Of a DNA stretch of 64,000 bases, positions 48,378 through 55,673 are shown in pieces (the first letter of the stretch is position 1; each line of letters starts with the position of its first letter). Below the pieces are notes generated by a model. It was not told the DNA's origin and made no database searches. It saw nothing but the letters and a program-made list of their open reading frames with translations. The position numbers were made by a program, and so were the translations under genes. Origin of the DNA: Aureivirga marina (lineage in GTDB: Bacteria; Bacteroidota; Bacteroidia; Flavobacteriales; Flavobacteriaceae); NCBI RefSeq assembly GCF_015767265.1, contig NZ_JADPIB010000001.1:806001-870000 (forward strand), read 5' to 3'.

Positions 48378-49370
48378 TTATTTCTTCGACAAATCTAGGA
48401 ATAATTTTTCCATTGTTTGTTGCTCTTTCTCTCCAATTTCTAGAAATAATTCTGAAGCTTTTTCTACATATTTTTTCTCTTTTGTTTTAGCTATTTTTAA
48501 AAATAATTCTGAAATTTCTTTCCATAAAATTGCAATTTCCACAAAAGATTTAGAAGCTTCTAAATATGCTTTATTTCCTGTAATTTCATAAGCTTCTTTT
48601 AAAAAATCACGATAAATATTTCGAAATAATGAACCTCCTGTTCCTCCATTTTCCATGATAGATGCAGAAGTTTCAAAATCAGATTCTATTGTTTTTGTTC
48701 TTTCAAACCATTTTTTTACTTCTTCACTAGTTTTAAAAATTCCTTTATATCCAAAATTGCGAATTGGCGGATTTAAATATTCTTTTATATTTCTTAAAAC
48801 TGCCTCATTAATGATAGTTTTTACCTCTGGAATTTTTCCTTTTTTTTCAATTGTATAACTTAAATTTCTCGATGATAAAGGTCCTCTTTCATTTCTTGCC
48901 AATTCCAAGTTTTTTAAAGAAGTTTTCACAGAACTTCCTCCTTGCCTTTTCGTATCTACTAAAAAAGCATCTTTTTCGTCAAATCCATAAATCGCTGCAT
49001 AATGCGCTGCAAAATGAATCTTTCTCGTAAAATAATCTAAATGATAACAATCCAATTTTAAACCAACTACTTTTCCTTCATTTAAAGCTGTTTCTACATT
49101 TTTCCACGCTTTTTTTATTGAAGTTGTTTCTTTAATTTCTAAATGTAAATCTAAGTTTTTACATAAATTTTTTGTGATAAAATCACTTCGAATTCTCCCT
49201 CCAATAAATGGAAAATTCATTCCTTTAAAACTCATAAAACCATAAGCAAATCCTTCTCCAAGTCCAAATAACATTGGTTCGGAAAGTTCAATTCCTAATT
49301 GATTTAATAAAGTTCCTGTTGCTGTTGTTTCACAATGTTGACCTTCAAAAGCTTTAATTTTTAATTTCAT
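48378..49370 (-). CDS. BtrH N-terminal domain / DUF4872 protein
   Basis: A 330-residue soluble protein. The N-terminal EGQHCETTATGTLLNQLG has the conserved Cys-Glu-Thr-Thr of BtrH-type domains, a cysteine-protease-like fold that in butirosin biosynthesis transfers an acyl chain. HFAAHYAAIYGFDEKDAFLVD supplies the likely catalytic His and Asp. The C-terminal half fits DUF4872 with helical Glu/Lys-rich segments. A role in acyl transfer or small-molecule modification is inferred only. It lies 2 bases after the AraC/GyrI gene and 7 before the helicase gene. Confidence 0.78.
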   Translation of the reverse strand: MKLKIKAFEGQHCETTATGTLLNQLGIELSEPMLFGLGEGFAYGFMSFKGMNFPFIGGRIRSDFITKNLCKNLDLHLEIKETTSIKKAWKNVETALNEGKVVGLKLDCYHLDYFTRKIHFAAHYAAIYGFDEKDAFLVDTKRQGGSSVKTSLKNLELARNERGPLSSRNLSYTIEKKGKIPEVKTIINEAVLRNIKEYLNPPIRNFGYKGIFKTSEEVKKWFERTKTIESDFETSASIMENGGTGGSLFRNIYRDFLKEAYEITGNKAYLEASKSFVEIAILWKEISELFLKIAKTKEKKYVEKASELFLEIGEKEQQTMEKLFLDLSKK

Positions 49371-49372
49371 TT

Positions 49373-50218
49373 TTATGCGATTGGAATATAAATTTCGGTT
49401 ACTAATTCTTCTTCTCTAACAAATCTTGGATCTTTTAAATAAACTTCAAAAGTTGGCGTATTTCGAAGTTCATAATCCGTTTCTAAAAGCCAATGTTCAT
49501 AAAGATAATCATGAAAATTTTCTAATTCTTGCAAAGGACCATAATGTAAAAAAACAGCATATTTTCCTCCTTTTATTGTTTCAATTTCAAAATCATCAGA
49601 CTTTTTAATCTCATTTTGTAATGTAAAAGCAACATCGTATCTACAATTTTTTGCTTCTGTAACATTCGGATCATCATAGTAAATTCCTATTCTTTCTTCT
49701 GTTGATAAATCAACATTATTTTTTTCCAAAATAGCTCTCAATTTCGCTCTTGTTCCACTAAAATCCATTTCATTTAAAGAACTTTGTAAACGAATAAAAG
49801 CTACTTTTTTTGGTTTAATTTCAATAATATTTACAGAAGCTTCATATGTTTTTTTCGTTTTAATAGACTTTTTCTGAATAGTCAAATTTTTATTTTCACG
49901 AAATTCTTTTGGATTAAAACCATAGAATTTTTTAAATCTTTTTGTCAAACTTGAAGGAGTTTCAAATCCAACTTCATAAGCAATTTCCGAAATCGGTTTT
50001 GAAGAATAACGAAGTAAATTTGCTGCTTTTTCAACACGTAATCTTGTGATAAATTCACCCAAGTTTTCATCTAACACAGCTTTTAAAATTCGATGAAAAT
50101 GATATTTAGAAAGATTTGATTTTTCCGCAAGTGTTTCAAGACTCAAATGTTCACCCAAATGATCTTCAATATAATTTACAACTACATTGACTTTTTTGAC
50201 ATAATCAAATTTGTTCAT
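49373..50218 (-). CDS. AraC-family regulator with GyrI-like effector domain
   Basis: A 281-residue transcription factor. Residues 1-110 hold two helix-turn-helix motifs of the AraC type (LSLETLAEKSNLSKYHFHRI and PISEIAYEVGFETPSSLTKR with FKKFYGFNPKEFR). Residues about 130-280 are a GyrI-like domain that binds small hydrophobic ligands in the BmrR/Rob class (YDVAFTLQNEIK, GGKYAVFLHYGPLQEL). It probably senses a toxic compound and controls the operon it heads, which also includes a BtrH-like protein and a helicase. Confidence 0.9.
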   Translation of the reverse strand: MNKFDYVKKVNVVVNYIEDHLGEHLSLETLAEKSNLSKYHFHRILKAVLDENLGEFITRLRVEKAANLLRYSSKPISEIAYEVGFETPSSLTKRFKKFYGFNPKEFRENKNLTIQKKSIKTKKTYEASVNIIEIKPKKVAFIRLQSSLNEMDFSGTRAKLRAILEKNNVDLSTEERIGIYYDDPNVTEAKNCRYDVAFTLQNEIKKSDDFEIETIKGGKYAVFLHYGPLQELENFHDYLYEHWLLETDYELRNTPTFEVYLKDPRFVREEELVTEIYIPIA

Positions 50219-52644: not shown

Positions 52645-53301
52645 ATGAATGAAAATTTGAAAAAATATTTTAGTTATGTGTTTCCTTTAACTAAAAAAAT
52701 TCCTTCTGAATTTAGTGGAAATCTTGAAATTACTTGGTATAACGGTAAGAAGTATTTAAATACGAAAAATGCAAATTATTCTTATGGTTCTCTTCAGAAA
52801 ATTTTACATTTTGGATTGGAAAAAATTTCTTTAAAAAATTATAATTCTATATTAATTCTGGGAATGGGTGGAGGAAGTGTAATTCAAACTTTAAGAAATG
52901 ATTTTCATTTTAAAAAAAAGATTACAACTTTAGATATTGATCCGAAAATTATTGAAATTGCAAAATCCGAATTTGGAATTCATGAAAATGAAAATCTTGA
53001 AATTCTTTGTGAAGATGCTTTTCATTTTGTAGAAAAAAAGCTAATTTTTGACGGAATTATCATCGATTTATTTATTGATTCAAATGTTCCAGAAAAATTT
53101 TACAAAAAAGATTTTTGGAAAAATGTGATGAAAAATATTTCAAAAAATGGATTTATTATTTTCAATGCTTCTTTAGAAAATACTATTCAAAATGAATTAG
53201 AAAATATTCAAAAACTTTTGGAAGAAAATGGATTTCAAATTTCTATTTTTGAAAAAGTAGAAAACACAAATACTTTAGTTTTAGCATTAAAAAATGAATA
53301 A
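52645..53301 (+). CDS. Spermidine-synthase-like methyltransferase-fold protein
   Basis: A 218-residue Rossmann-fold protein. ILGMGGGSVIQTLR is motif I, TTLDIDPKIIEIAK motif II with the acidic residue, and LCEDAFHFVE motif III, as in the spermidine synthase family. The usual polyamine-binding residues cannot be confirmed and the protein is shorter than SpeE (about 280), so it may be a related enzyme. It starts one base after tadA and overlaps the next gene by 8 bases. Confidence 0.72.
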   Translation: MNENLKKYFSYVFPLTKKIPSEFSGNLEITWYNGKKYLNTKNANYSYGSLQKILHFGLEKISLKNYNSILILGMGGGSVIQTLRNDFHFKKKITTLDIDPKIIEIAKSEFGIHENENLEILCEDAFHFVEKKLIFDGIIIDLFIDSNVPEKFYKKDFWKNVMKNISKNGFIIFNASLENTIQNELENIQKLLEENGFQISIFEKVENTNTLVLALKNE

Positions 53302-53791: not shown

Positions 53792-53956
53792 AAATTGCTA
53801 TAAAACCATAACAAATATTTAAGTTTTGCGATAAATTTCTGTTAAATAAAATTCACAAATTACCTTATTTCACAAAGTATCAATAACTTGTAGTAATTTT
53901 CTTTTTCATAAAGAATTTTAAAAGGAAGTTAATAATTTCTATAAATCATCTTTTCT

Positions 53957-54367
53957 ATGGTTTGCAAAAAACAAGAAGTTATCAAAACTTTAGTGAGAGA
54001 ATTATTTAATGGTTACAATTTTGAAGTTTTCGATACACTTTTCACTAAAAATATGAAAAGTATGGGAACAATTGCTGGACATTTTGAAGAAAATGGGATA
54101 GATGAATTAAAATCTATTAACAATTTGTTTCAAAGTTGTTTTTCCAATTTTCATGCAGAAATCAAAGAAATTTTCTCTGAAAAAAATAAAGTTTGTGTTG
54201 TTTTAGAAGTGACAGGAATCCATGATAAAGATATTTTTATGGGAATGGAACCGAAAGGAAATAGCTTTCGATTTGAATCTTTTAATGTTTTTTATTTTGA
54301 AGGAAATTTGATTTCAGGACATTGGGGAATTTCAAATATGATTCGTCATTTAGATTTACTGAAGTAA
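53957..54367 (+). CDS. SnoaL/NTF2-like protein, array copy 1
   Basis: A 136-residue soluble protein of the NTF2-like superfamily, close to the SnoaL-like ester cyclase type: helical start, then GIDELKSINNLFQSCFSNFH, ATGIHDKDIFMGMEPKG-type core and SFNVFYFEGNLISGHWGISN. It is the first and most divergent of four tandem paralogues; it alone keeps a Trp after the His in the last strand (GHWGIS) and has MGTIAGHFEENG where the others have a LDELDI-like segment. No polyketide genes are nearby, so the enzymatic role is unknown. Confidence 0.7.
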   Translation: MVCKKQEVIKTLVRELFNGYNFEVFDTLFTKNMKSMGTIAGHFEENGIDELKSINNLFQSCFSNFHAEIKEIFSEKNKVCVVLEVTGIHDKDIFMGMEPKGNSFRFESFNVFYFEGNLISGHWGISNMIRHLDLLK

Positions 54368-54393
54368 AATGTTTTTCTAAATTCAATTTAATT

Positions 54394-54801
54394 ATGACTT
54401 CTAAAAAAAAGCAAATTGTTGAGACACTTGTTTATGAAGTTTTCATGAAAAATAGAGTAGAATATTATGATACTTTATTCAGAAAAGACATGAAAAGTCA
54501 TCAAACCTTGGAAGAATTAGATATAAATGATGTTGATGGTTTAAGGCAATTAAACATGTTGTTTCATGAGTGTTTTTCACATGTAGAATTTGAAATAGAA
54601 GAATTAATTGAAAGTGGAAATAATGTATTTGCATTATTAAAAATATCCGCAATTCATGATGGAGAAAAATTTATGGGAATGGAACCAAAAGGAAAGAAAT
54701 TTACATTTGATTCTTATGATATTTTTTATTTTGAAAGAGGTTTAATCACTTTTCATAAAAGTATTACAAATATTGTCCAACAATTAGAAATGCTAAAATA
54801 G
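54394..54801 (+). CDS. SnoaL/NTF2-like protein, array copy 2
   Basis: A 135-residue paralogue of the flanking genes. It has ETLVYEVFMKN at the start, KDMKSHQTLEELDINDVDGL, ECFSHVEFEIEELI, then FMGMEPKGKKFTFDSYDIFY. The open frame extends upstream to 54322, but the ATG at 54394 is preferred because it aligns with the other copies (MTSKKKQIV beside MSSKK) and leaves a 26-base gap. The gap to copy 3 is only 2 bases. Confidence 0.72.
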   Translation: MTSKKKQIVETLVYEVFMKNRVEYYDTLFRKDMKSHQTLEELDINDVDGLRQLNMLFHECFSHVEFEIEELIESGNNVFALLKISAIHDGEKFMGMEPKGKKFTFDSYDIFYFERGLITFHKSITNIVQQLEMLK

Positions 54802-54803
54802 TC

Positions 54804-55208
54804 ATGTCTTCTAAGAAAGAAATAATCGAAATAATGGTAAAGGAAATTTTCAATAATAACAATTTAGATTATTATGATATTTTATTTACAAAAGACATGG
54901 AAAGTCATATGGTTTTGGATGAATTGGATATAAATAATGTAGAAAACATGAAATCAATGATGGATGTTCTGCAAAATTGTTTTTCAAATTTAATGGTAAA
55001 ATCAGAAGAAATCATTTCAGAAAGAGATAAAGCTTTTGCACTTTTTAAGTTTTCTGGAATTCATGATAAAGATAAATTTATGGGAATGGAACCAAAAGGA
55101 AAGAAAATTGAATTTGAATCTTATAATATTTTTTATTTTAAAAAGAATCAAATTTCTTTTCACAGAGGAATCACCAATGTTATTCACCAACTTAAAATGA
55201 TTGAATAA
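54804..55208 (+). CDS. SnoaL/NTF2-like protein, array copy 3
   Basis: A 134-residue paralogue. It shares MSSKK, TKDMESHMVLDELDINNVEN, NCFSNL, SGIHDKDKFMGMEPKGKK, and SYNIFYFKKNQISFHRGITN with the neighbours. The strand motif has Asn (YNIFYF) as in copy 1, where copies 2 and 4 have Asp (YDIFYF). It starts 2 bases after copy 2, so the two are probably translationally coupled. Confidence 0.72.
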   Translation: MSSKKEIIEIMVKEIFNNNNLDYYDILFTKDMESHMVLDELDINNVENMKSMMDVLQNCFSNLMVKSEEIISERDKAFALFKFSGIHDKDKFMGMEPKGKKIEFESYNIFYFKKNQISFHRGITNVIHQLKMIE

Positions 55209-55228
55209 TTTATACTAAAACAATAAAT

Positions 55229-55636
55229 ATGTCATCTAAAAAATTAGAAATCGTAAAATCTTTAGTCGATGAAGTCTTTATAAAAGATAATCCTGATTAT
55301 ATGAATGAAATCTGTACAGAGGACATGGAAAGTCATTTTATTATAGACGAATTAGATATTCATGATGTTGAAGGTATAAAAACATTAAATGCAATTTTAA
55401 ATCAGTGTTTTTCTGATTTAAAAGTGGAAATCGAAGATCTTTTTGCAGAAAAAAATAAAGTTTTGTTGGTTTTAAAATTTACAGGAAAACACGATAAAGA
55501 ATGTTTTCTTGGAATGGAACCAAAAGGAAAAAATATAGAATTTCTGACGTATGATATTTTTTATTTCAAAGGAAATTTAATTTATTACAATCGAGGAATT
55601 ACAGACGTAATTCACAAACTAGATATGTTAGAATAA
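55229..55636 (+). CDS. SnoaL/NTF2-like protein, array copy 4
   Basis: A 135-residue paralogue, last of the array. MSSKKLEIVKSLVDEVF, TEDMESHFIIDELDIHDVEG, QCFSDLKVEIEDLFAEKNKV and FLGMEPKGKNIEFLTYDIFY are closest to the general SnoaL-like pattern. All four copies share an invariant Cys-Phe-Ser in the second helix. The array ends at a hairpin terminator 2 bases downstream, so the four genes likely form one transcript. Confidence 0.72.
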   Translation: MSSKKLEIVKSLVDEVFIKDNPDYMNEICTEDMESHFIIDELDIHDVEGIKTLNAILNQCFSDLKVEIEDLFAEKNKVLLVLKFTGKHDKECFLGMEPKGKNIEFLTYDIFYFKGNLIYYNRGITDVIHKLDMLE

Positions 55637-55637
55637 A

Positions 55638-55673
55638 AAAAGCTGAATTTAAAAAATCCAGCTTTTATTTTTT
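55638..55673. terminator. Bidirectional terminator between SnoaL array and aldehyde dehydrogenase gene
   Basis: AAAAGCTGAATTT pairs with AAATCCAGCTTTT (one mismatch), with A and T runs outside, serving both convergent transcripts. Confidence 0.75.

Follow-up and report, generated by a model that had tools for sequence, protein, structure and literature searches.

The locus examined here raises the question of what four adjacent copies of one small protein family do for Aureivirga marina, and whether they do it separately, jointly or redundantly. The genes lie head to tail at 53957-55636 on the forward strand of the window, the 64,000-nucleotide stretch of DNA that was analyzed. Copy 1 (53957..54367, 136 residues), copy 2 (54394..54801, 135 residues from the ATG), copy 3 (54804..55208, 134 residues) and copy 4 (55229..55636, 135 residues) are separated by intergenic gaps of 26, 2 and 20 bases. 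Open reading frame coordinates agree with the initial annotation on this layout of genes of 134-136 residues, and a Pfam search bears out its assignment of all four to the SnoaL/NTF2-like proteins, with scores for SnoaL (PF07366) of 59 bits (E=5.3e-16), 50.9 bits (E=1.7e-13), 56.3 bits (E=3.7e-15) and 58.8 bits (E=6.4e-16) for copies 1 to 4, all above the curated cut-off of 28.4 bits. The reading that we favor, at a probability of about 60%, is that of a genus-restricted operon of four specialized SnoaL/ester-cyclase-like paralogs (PF07366, NTF2-like fold) that arose by tandem duplication.

The copies share 41-51% amino acid identity in pairwise comparison, with BLAST E-values of 1e-35 to 1e-50, and with their orthologs in a sister species they form one supported group in the tree discussed below. 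These similarities argue for common descent far beyond chance and sustain the earlier proposal of repeated duplication. Every reading frame is open and the motifs are intact: CFS, GMEPKG and FYF, previously noted as shared, are indeed invariant across the four copies, and HD columns are also common. The residue preceding the (V/I)FYF strand is Asn, Asp, Asn and Asp in copies 1, 2, 3 and 4, respectively. From their close spacing, the four genes are presumed to be co-transcribed as one operon.

The nearest relative of the window genome is Aureivirga sp. CE67, a member of the same genus. Its corresponding locus encodes a DXP synthase, a TadA-like deaminase and a small membrane protein, followed by three SnoaL-like genes that lie 27 and 9 bases apart. 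These three are orthologs of copies 1, 2 and 4, with amino acid identities of 81, 81 and 85%, and copy 3 is absent. At the CE67 junction, the spacer before the ATG ends in CAATAATT, similar to CAATAAAT before copy 4 in the window. The GMEPKG motif is looser in the CE67 orthologs (GIEPKG, GMKPKG), and the Asn or Asp state before (V/I)FYF is retained in all three. Downstream, the array is followed by a convergent aldehyde dehydrogenase gene in the window and, in CE67, by a gene of the same direction as the array that looks like a cysteine desulfurase; because this gene differs, the conserved unit is the array and not its right-hand neighbor. The two loci also differ on the other side, where a spermine-synthase-like methyltransferase gene (52645-53301) lies between the TadA-like deaminase and small membrane protein genes in the window and is missing from that position in CE67.

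The intergenic leader upstream of copy 1 (53792..53956, forward strand) contains two blocks, TTTAAGTTTTGnGATAAAnTTCTGTTAAAT and AAAGTATCnATAACTTGTAGTnATTTTC, that are strongly conserved in the alignment with CE67; the leader is likely a promoter or regulatory region. It showed no sigma-70-type site above chance and no exact TTG-N16..22-TAnnTTTG site, and an RNA element was ruled out by the lack of a meaningful match to Rfam. At the other end, a pattern scan detected a terminator-like hairpin (55638..55666) where copy 4 and the aldehyde dehydrogenase gene converge (one found against 0.3 expected). As to the shared terminator proposed for the array, the scan scored this hairpin on the reverse strand, with a run of T after it on the forward strand as well; it is not conserved in CE67, whose next gene is co-directional.

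Genes around the array are mostly housekeeping. From 48.4 to 58.0 kb we found DXP synthase, deaminase, spermine-synthase-like, membrane protein, aldehyde dehydrogenase, LysE, AraC-type regulator and BtrH_N/DUF4872 genes, and no polyketide pathway genes, as the initial annotation had stated. The nearest gene resembling those of natural product pathways encodes the BtrH_N/DUF4872 protein (48378-50218), about 4.6 kb upstream of the array on the opposite strand. It adjoins an AraC/GyrI-type regulator gene on its own strand, and the two may be a small pair for tailoring or resistance that has nothing to do with the array.

How old the copies are was addressed with a tree of 11 proteins that included the array copies, their CE67 orthologs and a dispersed pair of paralogs, one from each Aureivirga genome. 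Array copies and CE67 orthologs formed one supported group with the dispersed pair adjacent to it, and within that group copy 1 branches first. Copy 1, its CE67 ortholog counted, also has the highest identity to the dispersed pair (38-46%, vs. 29-33% for the others). The members of this pair (L005:1489-1899 in the window genome and L015:1501-1911 in CE67) are themselves orthologs, 83% identical, in different gene neighborhoods in the two genomes. Another SnoaL-like paralog (L006:1489-1896 and L017:1492-1899) adjoins a TrkH-like potassium transporter gene, named by eye, in both Aureivirga.

In approximately unbiased (AU) tests, trees that pair copy 3 with copy 2 alone (p=0.002) or with copy 4 alone (p=4e-5) of the window genome are rejected, and with them a recent duplication within that genome. 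Copy 3 thus goes back beyond the divergence of the two species, and most likely CE67 has lost it, as the simplest account of its absence there. Its nearest relative may be copy 4 (support of 67/74) or copy 2 (p-AU of 0.25). Copy 3 sits on a long branch, has Ser at position 69 where 10 of 10 other aligned relatives have Ile, and is dispensable at the genus level. A single clade of the four window copies is rejected as well (AU test, p=6e-4), a result that speaks against concerted evolution of the array as a whole. Gene conversion homogenizing the copies was likewise discarded, since the longest tracts in common, the GMEPKGKK region in copies 2 and 3 (P=0.0095 for that pair) and that of copies 1 and 4 (P=0.0045 for that pair), lose significance once all 18 tested pairs are taken into account. 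Between the window and CE67, the NG86 dN/dS is 0.11 for copy 1, 0.10 for copy 2 and 0.07 for copy 4, rough values because dS is near 1 and close to saturation, and these ratios indicate purifying selection on the three copies.

AlphaFold2 models of copy 1 (pLDDT 86.4) and copy 4 (pLDDT 91.3) match IdmH, AclR, KstA15, SnoaL2 and 4lgq in the PDB at Z about 15.5-18 over about 130 residues, and SnoaL itself at Z 15-16. Their best matches (Z 16-18) are SnoaL-like, as for an NTF2-like alpha+beta barrel, and AclR and SnoaL2 are also among the best PDB profile matches of the array proteins. Each copy is thus most likely such a barrel with one ligand pocket, and by analogy with solved relatives the copies most likely dimerize via the sheet.

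In SnoaL, Asp121 is the acid/base, and Asn33, Gln105, His107 and His119 are essential; in IdmH, Thr131 replaces Asp121, Asn117 replaces His107, and His129 is kept for His119 (PMC6830212). Mapped by alignment end-point offsets (+3 to 1sjw, -7 to 6hnn) and residue spacing rather than by coordinates, N110, H122 and G124 of copy 1 correspond to SnoaL His107, His119 and Asp121 and to IdmH Asn117, His129 and Thr131. By the same offsets, the Asn/Asp site before (V/I)FYF is the SnoaL His107 and IdmH Asn117 position, and the equivalent of Asp121 (position 124) is Gly, Ser, Gly and Gly in copies 1 to 4. Positions 108/110/122/123/124 give each copy its own signature: SNHWG in copy 1, SDHKS in copy 2, SNHRG in copy 3 and TDNRG in copy 4. 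Those of copies 1, 2 and 4 are identical in CE67, in a comparison of single ortholog pairs from two species. Since the dispersed paralogs carry SNHWG like copy 1, the ancestral residue at position 110 of this set was probably Asn, and copies 2 and 4 would have gained or regained Asp; outside the genus, relatives have Asp at this site. The Asn/Asp alternation pointed out in the initial annotation is real, but the split of copies 1 and 3 from copies 2 and 4 that it suggested disagrees with the tree, where copy 1 branches first.

These residues bear on the chemistry. The aldol cyclases SnoaL and AknH (PDB 1sjw and 2f98) share PF07366 membership and the fold (Z 15-17) with the array proteins, but the hallmarks of the SnoaL/AknH/DnrD enzymes are missing: all four copies lack the catalytic Asp121, no polyketide pathway lies nearby, and the best score in the array for the NCBIfam SnoaL_meth_ester model (NF033407) is 19.3 bits against a cut-off of 200. 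SnoaL-type aldol cyclization appears unlikely, because Asp121 is replaced by Gly or Ser in every copy. IdmH, the indanomycin cyclase (PDB 6hnn), has the same barrel (Z 18.1, 2.0 A over 131 residues) and, like copies 1 and 3, Asn at the SnoaL His107 position and His at His119; it also lacks Asp121. In contrast to the array proteins, with which it shares 19% identity, it belongs to a polyketide/non-ribosomal peptide cluster and has Thr131 where they have Gly or Ser. SnoaL2, AclR and KstA15 (PDB 8r2b, 2gey and 8r20) are equally close in fold (Z 17-18). SnoaL2 and KstA15 act with a partner reductase in anthracycline hydroxylation (PMC12281474), whereas no partner reductase adjoins the array.

Among 397 Flavobacteriaceae, this subfamily occurs as an array in the two Aureivirga genomes only, and three others have one weak match each. 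Among 120 genomes of the family, we found no other tight run of at least three PF07366 genes, and the window genome has the most PF07366 matches (nine at E<=1e-6; the next highest has five). On whether other flavobacteria keep the same number and order of copies, a check proposed at the outset, CE67 retains copies 1, 2 and 4, and no other of the 397 genomes has the array. The objection that related genomes might carry single copies with no array does not apply, as CE67 has three genes in tandem, and flavobacteria further removed have no array of this subfamily. A phage origin was discarded, as phage records gave no match, and plasmids gave no closer relatives than 'ester cyclase' genes of Agrobacterium, Sinorhizobium and a haloarchaeon, only 27-30% identical. 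Searching the literature for SnoaL-like tandem arrays in flavobacteria brought up nothing relevant.

In 247 Bacteroidota genomes, one other (G612) has a long SnoaL-like run. This run of about eight SnoaL-like/NTF2-like genes, two of them double-domain, lies on the reverse strand (L036:2853-8059, contig C31) with GMC oxidoreductase, TPP enzyme and DJ-1 neighbors, and looks like an uncharacterized metabolic cluster rich in NTF2-like proteins. It resembles the Aureivirga array in its head-to-tail SnoaL-like genes of independent origin, but differs in its neighbors, its paired-domain genes and its greater divergence (members mostly 20-40% identical to each other and at most 28% identical to the four Aureivirga copies). 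SnoaL-like runs therefore arise independently in Bacteroidota, and the Aureivirga arrangement is not new in kind. Elsewhere (L037:4049-6763, G571:C67), three SnoaL-like genes with signal-peptide-like N-termini, two of them close duplicates, are spaced at about 1.1 kb and separated by other small genes.

Why several copies are kept can be explained in other ways. Same-job copies might be retained to raise the protein level, the dosage-type function that had been suggested earlier and that would suit the tight head-to-tail packing and single apparent transcript. Copies kept for dosage are expected to stay similar. Those of the array have no more than 41-51% identity and carry different residues at active-site positions, whereas orthologs are 81-85% identical with the same signatures, and we consider this explanation very improbable. 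The copies could instead be partly redundant duplication leftovers drifting by birth and death in a loosely constrained family. The absence of copy 3 from CE67, its long branch and its Ser69 fit such drift, as does the unmatched number of PF07366 genes in the window genome. Against it stand dN/dS values near 0.1 in copies 1, 2 and 4 and the open frames and intact motifs, and drift as the general explanation seems unlikely to us.

An obligate heteromer deserves somewhat more weight, doubtful as it also is. Here the products would form mixed dimers in which one subunit aids the folding or activity of the other, as MonBI does for MonBII. These NTF2-like epoxide hydrolases are active only together and have been solved as a heterodimer (PMC13311259), and their synergy has been described (PMC8827043). 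Like the array proteins, they are paralogs of one fold from one gene cluster, and their complex (9kw8) matches the array models at Z 13-14; gaps of only 2-26 bases and several copies at the locus in both species would also suit co-assembly. However, MonBI and MonBII belong to another subfamily, and pairing between array members is hypothetical. Three copies in CE67 vs. four in the window argue against a fixed pairing, and solved relatives such as IdmH are homodimers (PMC6830212).

Specialized paralogs are favored over simple dosage because copies 1, 2 and 4 retain their own active-site signatures across species. The suggestion that the copies may have split roles accordingly gains ground: they are old, under purifying selection where an ortholog exists, and their copy-specific signatures are conserved between species. 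Under this reading of specialized paralogs, the genes would have been duplicated in tandem step by step before the Aureivirga species diverged, giving four copies, and copy 3 would later have been lost in CE67. Each would fold into its barrel with one ligand pocket, dimerize through the sheet, and be specialized to bind or convert different related small molecules, or to perform different steps on one molecule. The chemistry would more likely be IdmH-like substrate-shaping catalysis, another reaction at Asn/Asp110 and His122, or ligand binding. Mixed dimers between sister subunits may form, since the array gives their balanced co-production for free. A more elaborate version, distinctly unlikely in our opinion, is that the four products make up defined heteromers of pocket proteins whose active sites differ, copy by copy, in Asn/Asp and His/Asn, and which together process one Aureivirga small molecule or pass it on, as an enzyme module outside known polyketide-type pathways.

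The array represents the expansion of a known family in one lineage and not a new kind of system. As a clean, small example, it shows genes of the SnoaL/NTF2-like fold that were duplicated in tandem and then diverged at the active site, in a setting other than an antibiotic cluster. With natural three-gene and four-gene variants available for comparison, it makes directly testable whether tandem NTF2-like paralogs specialize or co-assemble.
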